Positions 5,330 to 36,814 of a DNA stretch of 64,000 bases are shown here, piece after piece. Below the pieces are notes generated by a model. The model did no database searches. It was not told the origin of the DNA and saw nothing but the letters and a program-made list of their open reading frames with translations. The DNA comes from Hyaloraphidium curvatum (taxonomy: Eukaryota > Monoblepharomycota > Hyaloraphidiomycetes > Hyaloraphidiales > Hyaloraphidiaceae): positions 186,001 to 250,000 of the forward strand of contig JAIVFI010000010.1 in assembly GCA_025558095.1 (NCBI GenBank), in the 5' to 3' direction. The translations under genes were made by a program, and so were the position numbers. The stretch's first letter is position 1. The number at the start of each line of letters is the position of its first letter.

Positions 5330-7579
5330 ATGCGCGCCTCCACTGGCGCCGCCGCCGCCGTGCTCTTCTCGGCGGCCCTGCTCGGCGCCGCGCGGGGCGA
5401 CTACGGTGCGCGACGGGCGGCGACCCGCGGCCGCGTGTAGCTAACGCGGCGAATCGCAGTTCTCAGCGAGGCCACCCCGTCGACGCCGCCGCCGCTGCAG
5501 CCGACGGTCATCATGCCCGGCTCCGGCGTGGGCGCGAGCGTGCCGGCGAACCCCGTGCGGCGCGACGCCGCCCGCGCCGAGCCGCTGGGATCCACGGCCT
5601 TCACCGGCGTGTACGCCATGCCCGACGTACCGGACGACCTGCTCCCGTCAGTCAGCCTGGGCGACGATTTTGCTTTCGTCGGCGTCAGCCCCGAAGGACT
5701 CGTTACGAAGTTCGTTTTTGACGACGTTAACATCGGACTGCAGGTTCGTCCGGTTCGGCAGCGGCCTGCGTCTCTTTCCTGAAGCGTCTCCCCTCCAGGT
5801 GGACAGCTTCGTCGCCCTCTTCGGCCAAGCTGACCCAGTCGCCGGCGGGAGCGCCGTTGTCCACCACGTCGGGCATCCGGGCGCTCCCTACGTGTGCAGC
5901 GGCGTCGGCGGAGAGAGCAAGACCTGCACGCTGCCCTGGACGACAACCACGGAATCCGCGAGCGCGTCGGTGCCTGCGAGCAGCACCCTGGACCCTCCGC
6001 CATCGGCTTCGGCTTCGGCGTCAGAAACCGCGACGGTGATCGCTCCACCAACAAATGAGCCCTTGTCGACGACGGAAACAACAACAGATGAGCCGCCGAG
6101 CTCGACTACCACCTGGAGCTGGACATGGGACTCTAGCTCAACTCCGAGCGGCACGGAGACTGCCAAAGTCACCGTCCGACCTATGACAACCGAAGCGTTG
6201 GAGCCGACCACCACTCTCCCGCCCCCGCCTCCTCCTCCCACGAGCACCCCTGCACCCCCTCCGCCACCGCCGCCCACCACTGCCGTACCTCCCCCGCCGC
6301 CGCCGACAACGACATTCGAGCCGCCCCCGCCGCCGACGACGAGCAAGGTTGTTCCGACGACCACGGCACCGCCTGCAACGTCGGCCAAGTCCGTGCCGAC
6401 GACGCGGCCCCCGGTGCCCACAAGCAGGAAGGCGCTCAAGGCGACCACGCGCAAAAGCTCGAGGAAGCGGAGCACCTCCAGGCGCAAGCTGACGACAACC
6501 AAGAAGACCGCAAAGACCACGACGCGGAGAAAGACCACCACCAAGAAGGTCGTGCGCAAGACGACCAAGAAGGGCGCTCCGGTGACGGGCAAGAAGGTGC
6601 TCGCCACCGCGATCGTCACCGCCAAGGCCCTCGGCCGGCGCAACCGGGCGCCGATCGGCCGCCGCGCCCTGCAGCGGCGCTACATCTTCGGCGACGACGA
6701 CCGCGAGCGGCTCAACGATCCCTGGCGGGGCCGTGTGCCCTACAAGCTCGTCGGCCTCGTCGGCAACCACTGTGGGCGCTCCGACCCGGAGTGCTCCGTT
6801 CCGATGCTGACCGGAAGCCCTGCACAACAGGCACCGGCACCCTCGTCGGCCCCCGGCACGTCCTCACCGCCGCGCACTGCGTCCACACCGGCGGCCCGCT
6901 GGGTGACTGGATCCCCAATCTGAGCTTCACCCCCGCGTACGACGTCGGCGCTCCGACGAGGGCGCCGCACGGCACGCTGCCGTGGGCGTTCGCGACGACG
7001 ACGTGGCAGTGGATCCGGAGCAACCAGAGCTGGGAGCACGACCTGGCCATCGTGGAGCTGCGGAACGACACGGGGCTGGGGTGGATGTCGTACGGCCACC
7101 ATTCGGGGTTGGTGGCGGCCTGGACCATGAACAGTGAGTGGGAGGGGGCGAACAGCCGGTCCGGTTGGGAGCTCATGTCCGTTCCAGTCAATGCATACGG
7201 CGGCGACCAGCCGGGCATCATGTTCTACGACCACGGCACGCTCGCGGCCGTCAACGCCGACACCTTCACCTACCGGGAAATCGACATGGTGCGCCCCCGT
7301 TCGACCGCACGCTCCTGCCCCGCGCCCTGACCGCCCTCCCATCTCCAGGTGCAAGGCGCCTCGGGCGGCGCCCTGTACACCATCGACGGCGATGGCAACC
7401 GCGTCATCTACGGTGTCAACTCGTGCACGGCCTGGCGGGCCGGGGACGTCCGCGGCCGCAACCAGTTCTTCGCGACGGGGCACACGGCGCCGAGCTACAA
7501 CCAGGCGGTGCGGATAACCGCGGCGCAGTTCGCGCGGGTGTGCGGATGGATCGGGGCGGGGGTGCTCACGGGGTGCTGA
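5330..7579 (+). CDS. Secreted trypsin-like (S1) serine protease with Pro/Thr and Lys/Thr-rich stalk
   Basis: Five exons (5330-5405, 5460-5743, 5799-6771, 6831-7288, 7349-7579) sum to 2,022 nt and 673 aa. A signal peptide (MRASTGAAAAVLFSAALLGA) is followed by a short ordered region. A Thr/Ser/Pro mucin-like stretch with PPPPPP runs comes next, then a very basic Lys/Arg/Thr block. The protease domain is C-terminal. The catalytic triad is His460 in LTAAHC, Asp515 in HDLAIVEL and Ser602 in GASGG. The fourth exon begins inside the Cys codon before TGTLVGPRHV, which restores the usual disulphide partner of the His-loop Cys. The arrangement of preprotein, stalk and GASGG site resembles glutamyl-endopeptidase-like S1B enzymes. 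The substrate is unknown. The stalk suggests wall or matrix retention (inference). Confidence 0.85.
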
Positions 7580-10427: not shown

Positions 10428-12543
10428 TCATTCGGGCACAACGTTGGCGGCCACGACGAAGCCCGGCGCCGCTCCGGCCTTGGCATCCTCGCCCGCCGGC
10501 CCCTCGCCGCCCTGCACTTTCCCCGCCCCTTCCTTCGCCTCGGCCTCCTCCAGCTCCCGCCGCTCCTTCTCCGCGTCCTCCCGATCGAGGTACCGGAAGA
10601 ATCCGTACAGCAGCGCCCCCGCGACCGCGCTGACCACCGCCAGGCTGCCGTACATCCACACGAGGTACGGATCCTGGCTGATGGGCACCAGCGCGAACTG
10701 GATCGCCGATCCGAACGCCGAAGTGAGCAGGAAGAGCGCCATCACCACGGACTTCATCGTCTCGGGGGCGCGCGAGTAGGCCAGCTCCAGGCCGGTGATG
10801 GACGCAAAGATCTCGGAGCAGGCGATGAAGAGATAGGCCGGGATCTGCAGCCAGACGCTGACCGACGACGGCGACCCGGCGTTGTCGGCGTTGTAGATGC
10901 TCTGCTGGACCCACGCGCTCCAGGCCATCCCGGCGGCAGCGAAGAAGAAGCCGAGCGAGATGCGGAAGACGGGGCGCAGCCGGATGTGCATCTTCATCAG
11001 GCCCGGGTAGACGACCCGGTCGAACAGGGGGATTCCAACAATCACGAAGAGCGGGTCGAGGTTGACGATGACGTCGTTGGGCACGCCGTTAGTCTCCATG
11101 CTGCCGGCTTGGGAGATGAGGTTGTTGGTCATCTGCGAGTAGACGACCCAGTAGAAGGGGAAGAAGACAAAGACCTTGCACGCGCCGAGGGCGCGGTACA
11201 GGTCCTGCACAAAGTGCTCGTCGATGTTGGTGGGCTTGTCGGGGTCCGCGGCCGTGACCAGCTTCGTGCCCGCGCCGGCTCCGGCGGGATCCATCATCTT
11301 TGCCCGCACGGCGGATGCGCAGGCGTCCCAATCCCCCTTGAACTTCCCGTACACCTCGCGGACCACCCTCCATGCATCGACGAGCACGGGCGAGCCGCGG
11401 CGCGGGCGGTCCGCCTTGATGGTGCCCGACTTCCATCCGACGAGGAGCACGACGATGACGAGGAGGAATACGAGGGAGGGCACGAGAAACGCTAGCCAGA
11501 AGCCCACGTACATCTCGGCGTACGTTGCGGCAAAGACCCCGGTTAGGGAGCCGACGTTGATGGCGAGGTAGAAGTAGTTGAACACCGTCTGAGGCACGAA
11601 TGAGAGACGCGAAGGAGGAAAAGTTCTTGCATTTGCGGCCCACCTGGATGGTCAGACCCGGGTCGACGACCTCCTGCTGTCCATTCTTCTTAGTCCTCAC
11701 GAAAGGCACCTTGTAGGGGTATTGGTCTGCGACGAATGGCGACACGTTGGTCTTGATGCTCCCCGTGGCGACCCCGAGCACGATCATGGAGATGATGAGC
11801 CCCGCGAGCGCCGCCGAGGTCGACGCGGCCAGCAGCGGCGGCACCGAGGTGCCCACGAGCACGGCGAGGCCGAGCACGTAGACGCCGCAGAAGAGGAGGA
11901 TGGTGCGGAACTTGCCGAGGCCCCAGGCGTCCGAGACGACGGCTCCGAAGATGGGGGAGAGGTAGCAGAGGAACTGGAAGGTTGTGGTGAGGGCCGTAGC
12001 TGTGGCTTGACCCAGACCCAGGCCGCCACGCTGGCCACTCTCGTTGGTGGGGTACGGAAGAGAGATGTAATTCTGCAGTCGGAGCGCACCATCGATCAGG
12101 GTTGATACAATCAGCGGGCCTTTCGCGCCGCCCACCTGGAAAGGGGCGCTGACTCCGTAGTATGCGAACCGTTCCGCGAGCTCGGCCAAGACCACGAGCC
12201 AGGCAGATAGCGGCAGCATGTCTGCGACCGTCGGCAGGACCTTCAGCTGCTCGTCGGTCGGCAGCGGCCCCGGCGGCGTCGCGGGCTGGGCGAGCGGCGG
12301 CGCGCTCGGCTCCGTCGTCGCCACGCCGGCACGAGTGACCGTCAGCGCGAGGCCGCCCGCCAGCGAGTCCTTGAGGGTCGCTGTGCGCGACATCGTGTCG
12401 CCGGCGCGGGCGAGCGTCTCCTTGCGGGCGCGCTGGAGGGTCGCCACGGTCGGGTCGGCGGGCGGCGCCCGGCGGCGCAGGCTCGCGACGGGGTCGGCGG
12501 GCGCCGTGGCCGCGAGCTCGGCAGCATCGTCGACGCGGGACAT
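10428..12543 (-). CDS. POT/PTR2-family proton-coupled oligopeptide transporter, copy 1
   Basis: Three exons (12543-12136, 12072-11644, 11588-10428) give 665 aa. The start at MSRVDD is supported by the same start in the paralogue at 34.7 kb. About 130 residues of disordered N-terminus precede the membrane domain, which begins ELAERFAYYGVSAPFQ. POT hallmarks include that ERFAYYG motif and SGSIKTNVSPFVADQY. A long cytoplasmic loop lies mid-protein, and the second half keeps the FASITGLELAYSRAPETMKS motif. The tail is charged and variable. The first intron (12073-12135) is 63 nt, divisible by three and free of stops, so an unspliced reading would look like a 21-residue insertion. The paralogue and family alignment show it is an intron. 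It probably imports di- and tripeptides at the plasma membrane. Confidence 0.9.
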
Positions 12544-17821: not shown

Positions 17822-20800
17822 CTAAATGCCCAGGCTGTCCTCGAGGTACCTCACGTACGCCTCGCCCTCGAGCGGATCCCTGGTCCATAGCGTCGGCACC
17901 TCGCTCCTTTTCCTGTTCCTCCGCCGCCCCTCGTCCCACTTGTTCCTGTGCGGAATGTCCCCCCTGAACTCGCCCGCGTGGGCGAGGAACCCGTCCACGC
18001 CCTCGGGCACGAACTGCAGGTCAACCGTGACGTTGGCCCCCCCGAGCGCGCCGACCCCGCGGTACATCTTCGCGCCGGCCAGCAGCGCGCGGACGGCGGG
18101 GTCGGCGAGCACCGCGCGGATCTCGGGCAGGGGGTCGTGCGGGTCGGCCAGGGCCGGGGAGGTGTCGGAGAAGGGGGAGTAGGGGAGGGTGCGCTCCAGC
18201 TGGCGGCGCCGGCCAAAGACGCTGGTGAGGACGGGTTTGATCGACGCCAGGAAGAGACGCGAGGCTAGAAAAGAACGGCGTTGGAGGGCGTCGGGAAGGA
18301 GTCCTTTGTGTGCCGACTCACCGGTGCCGAGCAAGTCTCCCAGGTCGACCTCGAACCCCACGGTCCATGGGCGACTCGCCAGCTCGCCCCTGATATCGCA
18401 GTAGAACCTTCCGGCCGCCGCCGTCGCGCCGCTGATCCGGAAGTCGAACCCGGCCGACATCATCGAGATCGTGAAGAAGTTCAGCGCCTTGGCGATGGCG
18501 TCGAGGACCTTGGACGCGATGTCTGCGACGCCCTTTGCGACCTCGAGGACGCCCTGCGCGACCGTCATGCCGACCTGCGCGACCTCGTTGGCGACCCGGG
18601 CGGCGGCGCAGCCGACGTCGCAGATGGCGTCCGAGATCACCTCTGGAGAAGGAGGTCAGGGCACGGTCACAGGCAAAGCGGCCGAGCGACCGACCGCGGA
18701 TGGTGTCCCACGCCCGGCAGATCCAGATGATGATCTGCTTCACGAGCTCGCACATGCCGGAGATGAACTGCAGCGGATCGGATCAGAAGATGCACGGTCG
18801 GCTTTGGCGCTACGCACGTTCTTCCCATGGCAGAACAGGTCCCACCAGGGGCACGGCGACGGTTCGGGGCACTTGATCTGCATGGCCCAGCCTGGTTTCG
18901 CGAAATGAGCGTCGGGGAGCAAGCGCGGCACGCGGAGCCACGCACTCGTGCACCCCCAGTACTCTTTCACTTCCTTGACGCACTGGTCCTTCCTGCAGAC
19001 TAGCGTCCGACGGTCCGTCAGCAATCCATCGGATGCGGATGGCAGAACGCGGGGATGCTCACCCGACAGCAGTGTCCGCGAGACGTCCCCGCGGGCCCTC
19101 TCGACGGATGCCTGCGCCTGCGAGACAACGTCGAGTTCAGTTCCAGAACGAGACTGCGTGTCGATCGACCAACCTCTCCTAGCTTCCGTACTCCGTCCTG
19201 ACACCAGGCCGATATCTGGGCAAGCACCTTGGAGACAAACTTCTGGGCTGGAGACGAAGGGCAGCAAGGTGAGACCTTGCAACGACGCACTCAACAGTTA
19301 TGCGAGACGCACCAACGTCCAAACCTCTGCGAATCGGCAGAGGGATTAGCCAAAGCCAGCAGAGCACAGAACGCGAGAACGTACGCAAACTCCACGTAGG
19401 CACCGACGCCCATAGACGGCCAGCCCTTGAGACTGAGGTCCGCCGAGATGTTGGCGCGGGCGGACAAGCCGAAGAACTCGCGCTCCAGGAACAGCTTGAG
19501 CCGGTTGGGCATGACGATGTCGACGATCACGGATTGCTGCGGGGTTCGCTTCAGGGTCCGCGTTCGGACGGATGCGCAAGAGAAGCTCACCGAGACAACG
19601 CCGCCGAAGAGCGAGATAAAGGCGGACCCCTGGATCGTCGGGAGCACCATCTTCTGCCCGCGGGCGTCGATGTACACGAACGGCCCCTCGTTGAGCGCGC
19701 TCCTGTTCTTTGCCAGGATGAGGATGTCGCCGCCGATGCTGAAAGCGGGATATCAGAGCGATCCATCGAATTGCGCACGGCACCTACGTGAGCGGCGCTG
19801 CGGACACATCGACCAAGAAGCCGTTGGTCGGATCCACCGCGATCTCGGCCTTTCCTTTGTAGCCTGCGCCGGGCCATCAGCACGAAGGCACTATCGCCGG
19901 CTTCTCGGGACCCACCAAACATGTTGAAGGCACCTTTGATGTTGATTCCCCGAGGGAAGACGATGCCGGGGACGGGCTCCTGCTCCGAGATCATGGAGTA
20001 GGAGGCGGTGAGGATGCCGGGGAACCCGGTCTCGGCGAGCACGGAGGGCAAAGTGACAGCGCCGTCGACAAAGGCGTCAAAGATGCTCTGGAGGACGATG
20101 TTGCGCATCTTAATGCCAAACCTGAGGGACGTTGGTCAGCCCAGGATCAGGCTTGGAAGCGAAGTGTCTCACCAGTTGTTGTCCGGGTTCTGCGGGTCGA
20201 TTCCGACGTAACTGAGGCAGCTTGCGTCAGGGTTGAAAACACACAAAGTCCAGCAGTGTACTCACCCCGATCCGGAGATGCACTTCGTCCTTGGCTTCGA
20301 AGCAACGAGCATGCAGCACCTGCAGCCGCAGGGAGAGGTCGACCGGTCCTCGTAGTAGGACCTCGCCTTGTCGCGCGCGCACATGAGTCTCTCCGTCGAT
20401 CCCGGCCCCCCGTTGGCCCTGTCCGCGTTGGGATCGAGCACCTGCTTGATCTCCGCCTCGGTCCAGTCCGTGCACCTGAATGTCCTGGGCGGCGGCAGGT
20501 CGTTGGCGTAGCACGGCTGCGGCCCGATCGCGATCTCCCCCCCGACGGTGAAGGCCGGCATCGGGAGGCCGAGGATGGGGGAGGTTGCGGTCACGCCCAT
20601 GGCGACGACGATGTTGCCGACGGCGAAGCGCGGGATGCCAAAGGCGTTGGACCACATGCCGACCATGTAGCCCTTGAGCTCCACCTTGGGAGGCGTGAAG
20701 ATGGCGGCAACTTCGACCTGCAGGCAGTCCTCCCGTTAGATGCACTGCCGCACCGATCCGGCAAGCCAACTCACTCCAAAAGTCAGCGACTGCTTCGCAT

Positions 20801-23800
20801 CGACCTTGACGCTCATCTCCCCCGTGAACGCAAGCCTCGTCTTCTTCCCCAGCACGAGCTCGAAGCCGACCTTGTTGAGCATCCAGTCGTCGTTGATCTT
20901 CAGGTTCACCACCGCGGCGCTCGCGGCGAACTCGTCCGACTTGACGCGGATCGCCGCGCGCAGGCGGGCGCTCCCGAGCAGGCCCCTGAAGGTGATGCAG
21001 ATGCTGTCGCCCTTGCAGTCGGCAGGGAAGCCGAAGTCCGCGGCGACGGTGAGGCCTTTGGTGATGGAGGTCTCCTGCGCCAGCGATGGGGTCGTCCTGG
21101 AGACGTGGGGATCAGCAAGCAGCTCCCCGAAGAGAAGGGCAGGGTCACCATTTCCAATCCGCGTTGCTGTTCAGGTCCACGCTCGAGTACGAGAGGATCG
21201 CGAACACCGCCGTGCCGGCGTTGGACGGCGCCACCGGCACCGCGTTGAAGTTCATGTCCTCGCTGCCGCTGCATGCGACCGGAACGGTCAGCCAAGCCCG
21301 GCGACGGCCCGCGACGGCGGAACCCACAGAGCCGTCAGCAGCGTGCTTATCGAGCTGAACGTCCCCGCCTCGATCACCAGCGCCGCCGCCGCGGTGCGCT
21401 TGGACTCGATCGTCCCCGCCTGCATCTCCATCGTCGCCACGGGCACGAGCGACGGCGAGCCGCGGACGCGGAACTGGTAGCTGCCCTCGCCGGCGAGCAC
21501 GGCCTGCATGAAAAAGTCGTTGATGAAGAGGTTGCCGATCGCCTGGTTGACGAAGGAGAGGTCCGCGGGGATGACGGAGGTCGCGAGCTCCGTGAGGATG
21601 GCGCCGAGGGGGAGGCGGCCGCTCTCGAGGGTGATGACGAACTTAGGCGCCCGGGGGACGAGCGCGTGCGCTGCCGGCACGGCGCCACGTGTTGCCGCGC
21701 GGGATCGCCTCCGGCGGCCGGGCACGAGCCGGTCCGGCTCCATGGTACCCGGCACCGCGAGCCGATCCTGTCCGACCGCGTCAGCCCCTTACGCTCGACC
21801 CCGGCCCAGGCAATCCACCCACCTCCCCCCTCTCCTGCATCTCGCTGCTCCACACCACGCTCCTCCTGCTCATGGAGACCTCCACCGCCGCCCGCGCCGA
21901 CACCGCCTGCCCCGCGACCTTCCACACGCCCGTGACGGCGAACGTGAAGCTGCTGGACCCGTTGGCCCGCTGGTACGACGCCTCGAAGAGCACCTCCTCG
22001 AGCCGGAAGTTGCCGCCGTCGAGGGAGATGAGCTCGCCCTTGGCCACCGTCGCGATTCTGCCGGGCGGAACGGGAGCGTCAGCGCAGAGTCCGGGGCGGT
22101 GCGAGGGGGTACCCGCATCCCGATCGAATGGTCGCACGGCGCCCCGGCACCGGGCGCGCACACGCTCCCGTACACGCTCTTCAGCGTGCCGACGGTCCGC
22201 AGTTTGGCCTGCAGCGCGGCGTCCGGGACCTCCACCGCCAGCCCCATCGAGTCGAGGAGCTGCCAGAGGCCCCATCCCAGCCCGTCGAAGTTGGCGTCGA
22301 TCCGCAGGCTGGCGTTGGTGGCGGTCAGCGTGGCAAGGGGCCCGGCGGTGCCCTGGAAGGCGGGGGAGCGGATGCGCGCGGTGCCCGTCGCGGTGCTGCG
22401 GGATCGGAGGTGAACAGACCGCCCCGGATCGCACCGCGGAAGGGAACGCACTAGAGCCCGAACTCGTAGGTGACCCCCAGGGTGATGGACGTGACGACGA
22501 CACCCCCCGCGATGGGGATGTCCGACAGCGACGCCGCGAAGCGGCCGTACTGCGCCGCCCCCGACCTGTCCGTCTGCAGGAAGAACGCCGTGACGTTCAG
22601 GGCGGGCAGGCCGCCGATGCACTGCGCGCAGATGGCCGCGGCGGCGTTCAGGTCCGAGGTGGCGAAGAGGTCCGAGGCCGTGACGAGCTGCGAGGAGGCG
22701 ACGTCCAGGCACAGCGAGGACGAGCCGATCGACACGGCCAGGGGCGGGAACTGCCCCGAGATCCCGAAGATGGCGTCCGTGGCCCCCGAAACGACGTCCG
22801 AAAACACCGCAAAGTCGTCGTCGGACATCTGCGCGCCCGCCGCGGCCGTGGAGTTGACCGCGTACACGCCGTCCGAGGCGCAGCGCTGGCACAGCTCGAC
22901 GTACGAGTTGCACGAGGCCTGCTGGCCCGCGCGGGTGGTGAAGGTCGTGCGGGTGCGGGAGCGGGTCGCGGAGGCGGTGGCGGAGGTGGATCGGGTGAAG
23001 GTGGTGGTGGTGGACGTGAGCGAGGTCGAGGTCCGCGTCGCCGTCGACGTCATCGGCATCTCCGCCGTCGTAGTCGTCGACGGCTTGGGGAGGCTCTTTC
23101 CGGCAATATCGGAGCACTTGTAGCACCAGCTCTGCGGATCGAGGTAATCGGCCGCCGTGCAGACGACCGGGTTGTTCCGCAGCCCCGTCGCGTTGGCCTT
23201 TCCCCAGAGCTCGGGGATGTCGATCCCGAAGTGGCACGCGCCCTCGCCGAAGCACCGCACATCGCCGTCCACCAGGGCGACGAGGATGTAGTACCCCTCC
23301 TCGGGCAGCGGGCAGACGCGGTAGTTGTGGTACAGGGCGGTGACCTCGGTCACGTTGAGCACGCGGCTGCGGTGCAACGGGGGCATCAGCCGATGGAGGG
23401 GAAGGGCGGCGGAGGAACCCACTTGTAGATCCGGATGTCGTCCAGGGAGCCCTGGAAGGAGGGGCCTCCGATGGATACGGCGCCGCCGCCGGTGCCGACG
23501 GCGACCCCGTTGACCTGGAGCGCGCGGACGGGTCAGTGACGCCAGCCGTAGCCCACCCCCCCGCTGTGGCGTGTGCCCACCGTCTGGTCGAACGTCTTGA
23601 CGGCATCGACGTAGAATTCGCCCTTGAAGCCGATGCTGCCCCCGAGGGTGAAGACAAGGTGGTGCCAGGTCCCGTCTGCGAAGCTGTCCGGGGGTTTGTA
23701 GAAGGCCGTCATGCTGTTGCCGCTGTTGCTCGGGTTGGTTGCAGCGAAGATGAGGAAGCCGTCCGAATAGCGCAGGTTCCACTTTGTGCCGCCCCGCAAA

Positions 23801-24253
23801 AAGGTCTGGTCGCCGGTTTTCACGGCCGTTTTGAACCAGAAGCTCAGGCTGAAGGCCGAGGCCATGTTGCCGACGGCCGAGGGCGCGGTGAAGTATCCCG
23901 AGCCGTCGAACCTGAAGGTCTTGCGGGCCGGCCACGTCGCGGGGAGGTCCTCGAGCGCCGGCTGGTTACCCGCCAGCGACGTCGGCCAGTCGCTGAAGCA
24001 GGATGCCAGCGTGTCGGCGCTGCGGGTGGGATCGTGCAGCCACCTGGCCTTCAGCGACCGCGGCGCGATCGCCATGGCAAAGGCATCGCAGGGGCCGTCC
24101 TGGGCGGCCTGGAGGGGCGGCGATGGGGGGGGGGTCAGCGGTGACGGCGGGCGGCGTCCGGGGGGGACCGACCGCTCTTGGCGCGGCGCCGGCGAAGAGA
24201 GCCGCGGCTGCCAGCAGGAGCAGGCCCGCGGCCCGCACTCCCCGTGCCGGCAT
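17822..24253 (-). CDS. Giant secreted LamG-domain protein, 22 exons, 1,735 aa
   Basis: Exons by my reading: 24253-24173, 24108-23581, 23514-23423, 23366-22452, 22395-22138, 22057-21823, 21767-21328, 21268-21149, 21096-20775, 20717-20266, 20211-20173, 20121-19916, 19863-19788, 19738-19591, 19536-19385, 19326-19313, 19247-19192, 19117-19063, 18999-18818, 18767-18695, 18642-18322, 18264-17822. They total 5,208 nt with all phases matching. A signal peptide precedes a concanavalin-A-like/LamG domain (FRFDGSGYFTAP, GTWHHLVFTLGG, LDDIRIYNRVLNVTEV). A short Cys region and a Ser/Thr-rich mucin linker follow. Next are about 1,000 residues of beta-rich sequence with no family I know, including GYMVGMWSNAFGIPRFAVGN and GGDILILAKNRSALNEG. 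The C-terminal part has a CxxxxC-rich module and amphipathic helices. No transmembrane or GPI signal closes it. Function is unknown; surface or matrix adhesion is an inference from LamG. Confidence 0.75.
19313..19326 (-). other. 14-nt microexon of the LamG gene
   Basis: This 14-nt coding segment lies between an intron with donor GTACGT and one with donor GTGCGT. It is required for the frame: exon 15 ends in phase 2 and exon 17 begins in phase 1, and only these 14 nt join them. The join gives FAGLDVAQKFVSKV. A neighbouring 39-nt exon (20173-20211) is similarly small. Transcript data would settle it. Confidence 0.5.
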
Positions 24254-24419
24254 CGTGCTCCTCGGGTGCCGGTGGCCGCGGGAGGCCTTGCCTTTTTGGT
24301 GGCCGGGCGGCGCGATTGGGCGGTCCAGGCTGCGGCCGATGCGGTTTCCCTACGACGATGACCGGCGGCTGGAGCGGACACACCATTGCGCCGCCGGCCT
24401 CTCTCGCTCGCACATCGCG
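24254..24419. promoter_or_regulatory. Bidirectional promoter between the two giant secreted genes
   Basis: Only 166 bp separate the start codons of the 1,735-aa LamG gene (minus) and the 876-aa secreted gene (plus). Both promoters and both 5' leaders must fit here, so the genes are probably co-expressed. No named element was recognised. Confidence 0.55.
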
Positions 24420-27400
24420 ATGCGGCTGCTCGCGCTGGCGGTGTTGGCCCTCGCGGCGGGCGCGGCCGCGGACGATGGCGGCGCGGCCGCGGACGATGGC
24501 GGCGCGGCGCACGACTACGACCCCGACGCCTTCCACGCCCGCATGCGCACGGCCAGCGGCTTTGCCAACCACGTCGTGTACGCCCCGCACGGCTCGCACG
24601 GCGTGTGGGCGCACGGCGACTCGCTCGTCGTCGAAGGCGGCGGTGTGGGCGGGGAGGAGGAGGGCGGAGAGGGCGGGGAGGCGGAGGCCGCTTCCGGGGG
24701 GGATCGCCATGGCGGGGAGGCCAGGCTCGGCAGGCGGGACCGCGTGCTGGACGACATCGAGCCGGCGCTACTGCCGCGCCGCGTGATCCGCCGGGTGGCC
24801 GGGTGCCCCGCAGCCGCATCGTTCTCGCTGTCGCCCGACAGGCTCGACGCCGGTGGGTCCGCCTCCCCTCGCGCCCCGGCTTTCCGCTGACCCGCTCCTG
24901 CCCACTCCTGCCCACTCCTGCCAGGTGCCCCTTTCGACCTGCGCATCGCCAACATGGAGGCCGTCGGCATCGACTTTGGCGACGGCGTGCCGCAGTTCTT
25001 TGCCTTTTGGAACGCGTCCGTCGTCGAGATCAACGGGCAAGCCACGACGACCCTGACCACCGTCGGCGACCAGCCCGTCACGACCTCGGGCGCCGGATTC
25101 GACGGGTGCTTCCCAACACTTTCGGTCCCGCTCGCGGTCACCGCCACGCTGACCCAGCTCGGCGAATCGGCGACCATGACGCCCAACGTCGCCGGGAGGT
25201 GGGGCCATCCGCCACCAACCGCACCCTTCTGATCGCGCCGCATGCCAGGTACTTTGTCGACGCCACAGTCAGCCCCGGCCTGCACTCCACCCGCTTCCCC
25301 TTCCAAATCACCACCGTGGGTCCCCCGTGTTTTCCGCCCCCTTGAAGTCCTCTCACCCCCGCCTCCCCATCGCAGACACCCTACACCTTTGTCCCCCCCA
25401 CCGACTACGTCGCCCCCCCCGTGCAGACCCCCACCGCCACCGTCCCGCAGCCGCGGGACTGCGCCGACCCGCCCCGCATGGCCGGCGGCCTGCGGACCGA
25501 CTTCCCCATCTACACGGGCAACGTCGCCGGTGCGCCCGTGACGGTGACGCTGGACAACGTGCGGGAGAGCGTCGTGTCGTGGACCGAGGGGCAGAAGACC
25601 ACGACGTACGAGGCCGTCTACCGCGCGGGGGAGATGCGCACCTTTTCGACCTACACGACCGCGTCGGGCAAGACCACGGCGACCTCCACGAAGATGGTCA
25701 CGGTCGCCGGCGGCAGGATGGTCACCACCCGGCGGTACGCCACCACGGCGCTCGACAATTCCAGGGACGGCTGCATCGCGCGCCTCGTTGATGCGGCCAA
25801 CTGGGTCGTGCCGGCGGCGGGGGTCGCGGACGATGCGGTGATGCTGCTCGCGGGGAGGGTCGGGGACGACGAGGTGATGGGCGTGGGGCTGGTGGGTTGC
25901 CCGCCTTCCGATGGGCTTCAGGCACGGGCTGACACGAGTCGTTGCGGCAGATGGCGGGGGCGATGACCACCCCCGTGTTCCCCTACCCGACCGACGTGCC
26001 CCTGCCCACCCGGCCGACCTCGATCCCCGCCACCTCCTGCTCCCCGTTCTACGCCTACGTCACGCCCACCTCGGTGACCCCCGGCCAGGTGGTGACCCTG
26101 CAGCTCTTCAACGTCCCCGCGACCCCCGTCCGCCTCCTCGCCTCGGGCTACTCGACCGTCTACGAGGCCCGCTACGCCGCCACCGTGCTCTCCAACTTCC
26201 TCGCCGTCTCGGCCGTGCCCACCCGCACGTGGACCGCCACCGTGCGCACCCCCGGGTGCGTCAACATCTCCACCAGCGTGACGGTGGCAGCGCAGACGAG
26301 GTTCCTGCCGCTGACGGCGGCGCCGAGCCCCACGGCCGTGTACCAGGTCCGCGCGAGGGCGAGGGACTTTGGGCGGCCGGGGGGGGGCGAGGTGGAGTCG
26401 GTGCAGACCTTCTACGTGGGGTCGCTTCTCGCACTCCCAAGCGCACGCGAAGCTGACGCATGCACGCCGATGGCAGCTCAACCGCGGTCCCAACACACCG
26501 GAATCCGTGCTCGCCCGGTCCTACCCTTGCCTCGTCGGCCCGCTGCGCACGCGCACGGCGATCCGGTACAGCAACGCGACGTGGGCGGCGCGGTTCTACA
26601 GCCTTGCAAGGAACACGAGCCGCGGGGTCACGACGACGCGGCTGACGTGGACGCTGGGGACCAACGGGAGGGGGAGGATGAGCTTCATCGCGAGGGACTA
26701 CGCCGCGCCGAGGACCAGGCTGGGTGGGTGCGCCGTGCGGCGTGCGGATGCGGAGGACGGAGCTGACCGCGTTCCGTCCGGGCAGACATGTACGAGACCA
26801 ACGCCTTCCGCCTGCCCCGCCCGGCGGACTGGTCCGTCGAGTGGACCGCCACGGGCGCCTTCACGGGCCGCACCATGCCGCCCTTCACCGTGACTACGGA
26901 CTACATCGTGGGCTTTGCTGCGACCGCACCCGCACGCACCAATGCGCTGACCTTCCGCCGCCGCCGCCCGCGCAGGCCGACGGCCTCCTCTTCCCCAACG
27001 GCACCGCTGTCCCCTCCTCCCGCGCCGACCTCCGCATACGCCACAGCGTCACCGTGCACCCGTACTGGCCGCGCACGCCCAAGGGTTCCCGCCCGACGGT
27101 GGCGTTCAACGTCACCGCGCCCACGTACGGGAGCATGGACAACGTCACCATGCTCTGCGCGCACCCGGGGGCGAAAAGGGCCGCGTTCGTCGTCGTGCCG
27201 ATGGGCGCGCTGAAGGAGCGGCCGGGGGAGGCGGACCTCGCGGCCGCGGTGTCGAGCGCAAGGTGGACGTTCGTGACCGACAGGGCGGGGCGGTGGGTGC
27301 CGCGCGCCCGCGCGGCGATCTACCCGCGGTCGCTGGGGCCGCTGTCGGAGATCGCGGCGAGGTGGGCGTCGGATGGGGACGGCGGCGGGATGCGGACGGG

Positions 27401-27482
27401 GGGGGAGAACCCGAACGCGCCGAAGGGGAGCCCGCCGGCGGCGGAGCTGGAGAGGCAGCTGGCGGCGTTCAGGCAGGTGTGA
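24420..27482 (+). CDS. Secreted orphan protein, 8 exons, 876 aa
   Basis: Exons 24420-24852, 24925-25198, 25249-25315, 25376-25891, 25951-26415, 26477-26723, 26786-26907 and 26976-27482 sum to 2,631 nt with consistent phases. The protein starts with a signal peptide (MRLLALAVLALAAGAAA) and a duplicated ADDGGAA unit. The rest is Thr/Ser/Pro-rich with repeated beta-sandwich-like stretches. Examples are FPTLSVPLAVTATLTQLG, GAPVTVTLDNVRESVVSW, TPGQVVTLQLFNVPATPVRL, RTAIRYSNATWAARFY and PADWSVEWTATGAFTG. These look like several divergent immunoglobulin-like or mucin-associated modules, but I recognise no family. The C-terminus is charged and lacks a membrane anchor. Head-to-head pairing with the LamG gene suggests a shared extracellular role (inference). 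Confidence 0.7.
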
Positions 27483-34689: not shown

Positions 34690-36814
34690 ATGTCCCGAAT
34701 CGACGATGCCGCGGAAATGTCCGCGGCGGGACCGTTCGACCCGGTCGCAAGCCTACGCCGCCGGCCGTTGCCTGCCGCCCCCACCGTGGCAACGCTGCAC
34801 CGGGCCCGCAAAGAGACTCTGGCCCGCGCGGGCGACACGATATCTCGCACGGCAACCCTCAAGGACTCGCTGGCGGGCGGTCTCGCCATGACCGTCGCTC
34901 GTGCCGGCGTGGCGACCACGGAGCCGACCGCAGCTTCGTTGGGCGAGCCTGCTGTCCCGCCCGGCCCGCTGCCGACCGAGGAGCAGATGAAAACGCTGTC
35001 AATCGTCGCAGACACGCTGCCTGTGTCCGCTTGGCTGGTGGTTTCGGCCGAATTCGCCGAGCGATTCGCGTACTACGGAGTCAGCGCTCCGTTCCAGGCA
35101 GGCAGCTCCCAGTCCTGCTGTTGGAAATGTCTTGATCAATCTGGGCCTTCTGACAGAACTACATCTCCATTCCCTACCCGACAAATTCAGACGGCCAGCG
35201 CGGTGGCCTGGGCCTGGGTCAAGCCACTGCCACAGCCGTCACTGCCGGGTTCCAATTCCTCTGCTATATTACCCCGGTCTTTGGCGCCATTGTCTCGGAT
35301 TCCTGGGGCCTCGGCAAGCTCCGAACTATCCTCCTTTTCTGCGGCGTCTACGTGCTCGGCCTCGCCGTGCTGGTGGGCACCTCGGTGCCTGCGCTGCTGG
35401 CCACCTCGACCGCGGCGTCCCTTACCGGACTCATCATCGCCATGGTCGTGCTCGGCATGGCCACAGGTGGCATCAAGCCCAGCGTGTCGCCCTTTGTGGC
35501 CGATCAGTACCCGTACAGGGTCCCTTTCGTAAGGACAAAGAAGAATGGGCAGAAAGAGGTCGTCGATCCAGGCCTGACAATCCAGGTGTGCTGTCGAGCT
35601 GCATGCATCCGCCGCTCCGTTTCCTCACCTTGCAAGCTTCATGCCGGCAGAGGGTCTTCAGCTACTTTTGCCTCGCGCTCAACGTAGCCTGCCTGACCGG
35701 CGTCTTTGCCGCAACTTACGCCGAGATGTACGTGGGCTTCTATCTCGCGTACCTGCTCCCCTCGCTCGTTTTCCTTTTCGTCATTGCCGTGCTTCTCCTC
35801 GGGTGGAAATCAGGAACCATCAAAGCGGATCGCCCCCATCTCGGCTCATCCGTCCTCGTGGATGCGTGGAAGGTAATCCGCGAGGTGTACGGCAAGTTCA
35901 AGGGGGATTGGGAGACTTGTGCTTCCGCAGTGAGGGAGAAGATGATGGATCCTGCGGGACCTCCTTCGGGCACAAGCCTCTTGACAGCTGCGGACCCCGA
36001 CAAGCCGACCAACATCGACGACCGCTTCGTCAGGGACCTGTACCGAGCCCTCGGCGCGTGCAAGGTCTTTGTCTTCTTCCCCTTCTTCTGGGTGGTCTAC
36101 GCCCAGATTACCAGCAACCTCATTTCGCAGGCCGGGAGCATGGAGACCAACGGGGTGCCCAACGACGTCATCATGAACCTGGATCCCCTGTTCATGATCG
36201 CCGGCATCCCGTTGTTCGACCGGGTCGTTTACCCGTCGCTGATGAAGATGCACATCAGGTTGCGGCTCGTGTTCCGCATCTCGCTCGGCTTCTTCTTTTC
36301 TGCTGCAGCGATGGCGTGGAGCGCCTGGGTTCAACAAGCGATCTACAACGCCGAGGATGCCGGAGCGCCGGGTTCGATCAGCGTTTGGCTGCAGGTACCC
36401 GCGTATTTCTTTATTGCGTGCTCGGAGATCTTTGCGTCCATCACGGGCCTGGAGCTGGCCTACTCGCGTGCTCCCGAGACCATGAAGACGGTCGTCATGG
36501 CGTTGTTTCTCCTCACATCAGCATTCGGATCGGCGATCCAGTTCGCCCTGGTTCCGATCAGTCAGGATCCTTACCTCGTTTGGATGTACGGTGGGCTGGC
36601 CGTCGCCAGCGCGGCCGCGGGGGCGCTGCTGTACGGATTCTTCCGTTACCTGGATCTGGAGGACGCGGAGAAGGAGCGACGGGAACTGGAAACCGCGGAG
36701 GCAAAGCAAAGGGTCGCGAGGATGCCAGGAGGGTTGGCATCGGAAGGCAACGATCGGAAGGCCGAGACGGCATCGTCCATCGCCGTCGTCGCGGTCAAAG
36801 ATGTGCCGGAGTGA
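34690..36814 (+). CDS. POT/PTR2-family proton-coupled oligopeptide transporter, copy 2
   Basis: Three exons (34690-35097, 35157-35585, 35651-36814) give 666 aa. Exon lengths 408 and 429 are identical to copy 1, so both genes share the same intron positions. The protein is closely similar throughout: MSRIDDAAEM start, EFAERFAYYGVSAPFQ, GGIKPSVSPFVADQY, FASITGLELAYSRAPETMKT. The first intron (35098-35156) begins GC rather than GT: the sequence is TTCCAG then gcaggc, ending ctgacag. No GT donor gives an open frame, and the downstream frame is intact for 530 codons. A functional GC-AG intron is therefore more likely than a broken gene. It probably imports di- and tripeptides. Confidence 0.86.

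Follow-up and report, generated by a model that had tools for sequence, protein, structure and literature searches.

Do the two large genes that diverge from a short spacer in this DNA encode proteins that act together outside the cell, or are they neighbours that were merely copied together? We analysed the window, the whole stretch of 64,000 nucleotides (G000:C10:186001-250000, GC content 65%), and searched the genome that contains it (31.9 Mb in 55 contigs, with the window copy on contig C10). This genome encodes a near full-length alpha-aminoadipate reductase in two exon blocks (profile positions 2-651 and 670-1363) and has several strong matches to chitin synthase (PF03142), so the host is most likely a fungus. 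The initial annotation described the locus as a head-to-head pair of secreted orphan genes with a shared promoter, and suggested an extracellular adhesion or matrix system. The gene models obtained in this study are as follows.

17822-24253, minus strand: minus gene, 21 exons, 1,718 aa, single terminal stop
24253-24173, 24108-23581, 23514-23423, 23366-22452, 22395-22117, 22057-21819, 21670-21328, minus strand: exons 1-7 of the minus gene
21268-21149, 21096-20775, 20717-20266, 20211-20173, 20121-19916, 19863-19788, 19738-19591, minus strand: exons 8-14 of the minus gene
19536-19368, 19247-19174, 19117-19063, 18999-18818, 18767-18695, 18642-18322, 18264-17822, minus strand: exons 15-21 of the minus gene
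24254-24419, no strand: intergenic spacer between the start codons, 166 bp, candidate shared promoter region
24420-27482, plus strand: plus gene, 8 exons, 876 aa
24420-24852, 24925-25198, 25249-25315, 25376-25891, 25951-26415, 26477-26723, 26786-26907, 26976-27482, plus strand: exons of the plus gene

The plus gene agrees with the initial annotation in extent and length, and the gap between the two starts is exactly 166 bp, as first described. The minus gene, previously given 22 exons and 1,735 aa, is retained as a multi-exon gene of secreted type, with the exon number and length revised to those listed above. Coding bias and splice consensus guided the spliced models of both genes, which were then adjusted manually against the paralogs. 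The introns of the minus gene are of the GT-AG type, including intron 1 with a weak GTCGGT donor, apart from one GC-AG intron (window 22058-22116, minus strand, donor GCGGGT..CAG), whose donor was inferred because it restores residues conserved in the copies on contig C8. GC-rich DNA nearly always offers an automatic path that stays open in phase, and the weight of the gene models therefore rests on conservation among paralogs. The exons of both genes match the translated paralogs on C8 (two copies) and C34 exon by exon. Comparison of the C10 and C8a copies revealed 532, 391, and 681 differences by codon position in the minus gene (dN 0.36, dS 0.75), and the corresponding values for the plus gene are dN 0.36 and dS 0.64. 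For both genes, the paralog differences are concentrated at third codon positions, with dN below dS. The exon matches, the third-position bias and the low dN together argue that the gene models are more than chance.

Elsewhere in the window, two closely similar membrane-protein stretches (10443-11600, minus strand, and 35648-36676, plus strand) look peptide-transporter-like by eye. At 6315-7570 on the plus strand, a stretch rich in Thr, Pro and Ser precedes a segment that resembles a trypsin-like serine protease (motifs TAAHC and GASGG by eye), and the product is possibly another secreted protein. A search of the window against Rfam gave no match.

DNA and protein searches of the genome located the two-gene unit at four places: C10, C8 twice (about 262-272 kb and 278-289 kb, forming an inverted repeat), and C34 (about 202-214 kb). 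The genes stand head-to-head in all four pairs, and both are kept as open models in every copy, although the C8 models are approximate in their C-terminal exons. The fetched C8 and C34 loci contain nothing that matches the genes flanking the pair in the window, and the duplicated unit therefore appears to consist of the two genes. Further distant matches to the conserved core of the minus protein, about nine in number, were found on C22, C38, C1 (four), and C3 (three), bringing the core family to about 13 genes; because the search scored the best candidates only, these counts are lower bounds. The orphan status proposed for both genes is thus ruled out by relatives within their own genome, namely three further copies of the pair and the more distant core-family genes. 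The core-family gene on C22 (C22:512001-520500, locus L051) carries a long acidic tract after a signal-like segment, and its upstream neighbour, in the same orientation, resembles a GFA/CENP-V-type protein by eye and does not belong to the plus family.

The spacers of the four pairs measure 166, 378, 349, and 354 bp, and a motif search found nothing common to them beyond GC-rich 8-mers. Short gaps between genes look ordinary in this genome: the next gene downstream appears to begin about 150 bp past the plus gene. The shared promoter of the initial annotation is left unproven by these results, since the four spacers hold no specific common motif and a 166-bp gap is not unusual here. Short spacers lacking a specific shared promoter motif would also be expected if two unrelated secreted-protein genes had become adjacent by coincidence and been copied together with no functional link, and the linkage could simply be inherited through segmental duplication. 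The core family also has its distant relatives, and searches of this genome with thresholds up to E<=10 yielded no plus-family gene beyond the four pairs. However, no plus-family gene was detected without its minus gene, both genes remain open in all copies, and dN is below dS in the comparisons made. We consider coincidence quite unlikely.

Analysis of the minus protein indicated the following features.

24103-24253, minus strand: putative signal peptide by hydropathy, first ~29 aa, in exon 1 and the start of exon 2
23342-23907, minus strand: LamG head domain, residues 95-242 (Laminin_G_3, PF13385; Pfam, E=5e-20)
22931-23089, minus strand: Ser/Thr-rich mucin-like stalk by composition, residues 327-379
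19630-22912, minus strand: conserved beta-rich core, apparently an undescribed family, residues 386-1267
18479-18767, minus strand: Cys-containing segment of amphipathic helical character by periodicity, residues 1441-1519
17906-17914, minus strand: putative basic Kex2-like site RKR by sequence, upstream of the C-terminal peptide SEVPTLW

Much of the initial description of this protein is borne out. Both genes begin with hydrophobic, signal-like N-terminal segments, as do their paralogs (hydropathy), and hydropathy revealed no C-terminal membrane helix in either protein. The LamG domain scores 72.6 bits against a curated cut-off of 27.6 and covers profile positions 2-150 of 151, and the mucin linker corresponds to a stretch of 55 residues with a Ser/Thr content of 58%. 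The long beta-rich region likewise stands: residues 400-1390 have amphipathic-beta periodicity, with z=+4.3 relative to shuffles. Amphipathic-helix periodicity at 100 degrees (z=3.0) characterises the C-terminal ~330 residues. AlphaFold2 predictions on single window exons were uninformative (pLDDT 38.5 and 40.7). The minus C-terminus reads RKRSEVPTLW in C10, RKRSEVPTLW and RKRSEIPTLW in the C8 copies, and RRRNDVPTLW in C34, so that the consensus R[KR]R[SN][ED][VI]PTLW is kept in 4/4 copies.

The minus protein beyond the LamG domain (~1,400 aa) has no match in Pfam or PDB. Searches with the core came out negative against Pfam and NCBIfam, against PDB (queried with the sequence and also with a three-row profile), and against the GTDB prokaryote and IMG/VR viral contigs, in line with the earlier description of the beta-rich sequence as unrecognised. 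The core thus apparently represents an undescribed protein family of ~900 residues; the collections searched were Pfam, NCBIfam, PDB, prokaryotic, and viral, and other fungi may encode members annotated as hypothetical proteins. A literature search on laminin-G proteins in chytrids found no matching paper in the library searched. The only PDB line for the core, a DNA glycosidase with E=0.41, is put down to chance.

The two periodicities would also suit a secreted carrier of lipids or other hydrophobic ligands, in which the amphipathic-beta core and the amphipathic helices form a hydrophobic groove and the head serves only for targeting. Alternating hydrophobicity is, however, common among beta-sheet proteins generally, and the core resembles no solved lipid-transfer protein and no Pfam family, which makes a carrier function quite unlikely.

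The plus protein carries two further features.

24420-24470, plus strand: putative signal peptide by hydropathy
24471-24782, plus strand: possible propeptide ending at the basic site PRR, a conserved site and putative cleavage point

The basic site PRRVIR is present in the plus protein of 4/4 copies and could release a propeptide. Searches with the plus protein gave no recognised domain in Pfam, no viral match, and a best PDB hit at noise level (E=0.7). The repeated beta-sandwich modules suggested in the initial annotation were not recovered: residues 276-430 resemble residues 431-605 weakly in a profile comparison (HHalign probability 38%), which detected no other internal repeats in the plus protein or in the minus core.

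Comparison of the four minus proteins revealed that the head is replaced or diverged between copies while the core and the partner are conserved. Between C10 and C8a, the head shares 36% aa identity (dN 0.68, dS 0.73, dN/dS about 0.9), in comparison to 68% for the core (dN 0.27, dS 0.74, dN/dS about 0.37). Against PF13385, the C8a head scores 13 bits (E=0.11) and the C8b head gives no match; we tentatively regard the C8 head as a diverged, LamG-like domain. In the C34 copy, an HpiC1-like jelly-roll (PF22825, 8.5e-23) forms the head, and behind it come two modules that resemble the proprotein-convertase P-domain (PF01483) at scores under the curated cut-off; the stretches scanned contained no protease domain alongside these modules. 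Among the distant core-family members, one on C3 carries an F5/8-type-C-like head and a Ricin_B-like C-terminal module, both below threshold, and the N-termini of others are long and acidic or Cys-rich. The divergence of the heads may reflect relaxed constraint rather than diversification.

The two C8 pairs form a mosaic. Between C8a and C8b, the head shares 64% aa identity (dS 0.80) and the C-terminus of the minus protein 82% (dS 0.44), while the core is 99.3% identical (dS 0.029) and the plus body 99.9% (dS 0.002). At the DNA level, the head and spacer are about 60-78% identical and the core and plus body 94-100%, introns included. Perfect identity extends over as much as 2,335 bp, whereas 2,000 permutations gave no run longer than 159 bp, and the identity of the inverted repeat stops about 19 bp beyond the plus stop codon. 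The simplest account of this pattern would be an old duplication followed by recent gene conversion of the core and the partner. The escape of the head and spacer could reflect selection, or simply homology too low for conversion to proceed, and the near-identity could in part be an assembly or polishing artefact of near-identical inverted arms. A large inverted repeat with core-family genes also occurs on C3 (217001-225500, locus L054, and 228301-236800, locus L055; 98.1% identity across 8.4 kb), where the searches detected no plus-family gene. Inverted duplication, seen on C8 and C3, may be a habit of the core gene family.

Secreted-type sequence, the Cys-containing segment, the mucin-like stalk and the lectin-like modules would all be at home in structural proteins of the extracellular matrix or cell wall, as would the long acidic N-terminal tracts of the distant core-family members. 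In such an arrangement, which has no role in recognition, the core would polymerise or coat the wall, with the heads anchoring it to glycans and the plus protein as a co-secreted structural partner. A purely structural function would not in itself lead one to expect such divergent heads next to scaffolds that are nearly identical, and we regard it as possible though on the unlikely side.

We give about even credence to the reading that the locus is a two-gene cassette for two secreted proteins, an extracellular adhesion or recognition pair with a variable head on a homogenised scaffold. The minus protein would present an N-terminal lectin-like head, binding carbohydrate or a surface, on a mucin stalk over a large beta-rich scaffold and a helical C-terminal region. 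Its partner, the plus protein, would undergo processing at the conserved basic site. Both products would be secreted, co-expressed and physically interacting, recognition would be their biological role, and gene conversion would account for the C8 mosaic. The signal-like N-termini of both proteins, the lack of a C-terminal membrane segment, the differing heads of lectin or jelly-roll type, and the duplication and retention of the pair appear to fit this cassette better than the alternatives considered. The paired extracellular system of the initial annotation is upheld to that extent, with adhesion itself staying at the level of inference. The interest of the locus lies in an apparently undescribed family, a cassette that is copied and kept as a unit, and a mosaic whose putative binding head and intergenic region are the parts least homogenised. 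If the heads define binding, the copies form a natural series in which to study how surface recognition diversifies in a fungus, and the core offers a new scaffold fold to solve.

Comparison with known systems places the parts of the locus differently. The C10 head is a bona fide member of the Laminin_G_3/ConA-like lectin proteins, above the cut-off, and the minus protein differs from these in its other ~1,400 residues, which belong to no Pfam family, and in the replacement of the head in its paralogs. In Dictyostelium, tgrB1 and tgrC1 are paired diverging genes with a single shared promoter that encode transmembrane proteins with TIG/IPT domains (PMC12324515), and polymorphism is uneven along tgrB1 (PMC11088635). 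The fungal locus shares with this system the adjacent divergent genes for large extracellular proteins, the duplicated pairs, and a variable extracellular part beside a conserved rest; paralog divergence within one genome serves here as a proxy for population polymorphism of the binding region. Unlike the Tgr proteins, the fungal pair lacks a C-terminal hydrophobic segment, and neither protein has a Pfam match to TIG/IPT domains at E<=5. A specific function in fungal self/non-self or partner recognition seems unlikely to us; two co-encoded secreted proteins would then diversify the head by module replacement and sequence divergence, with gene conversion keeping scaffold and partner uniform, as a functional analogue of TgrB1/TgrC1 unrelated to it. 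By arrangement, TgrB1/TgrC1 is the closest analogue of the fungal cassette, a relation of analogy rather than membership.
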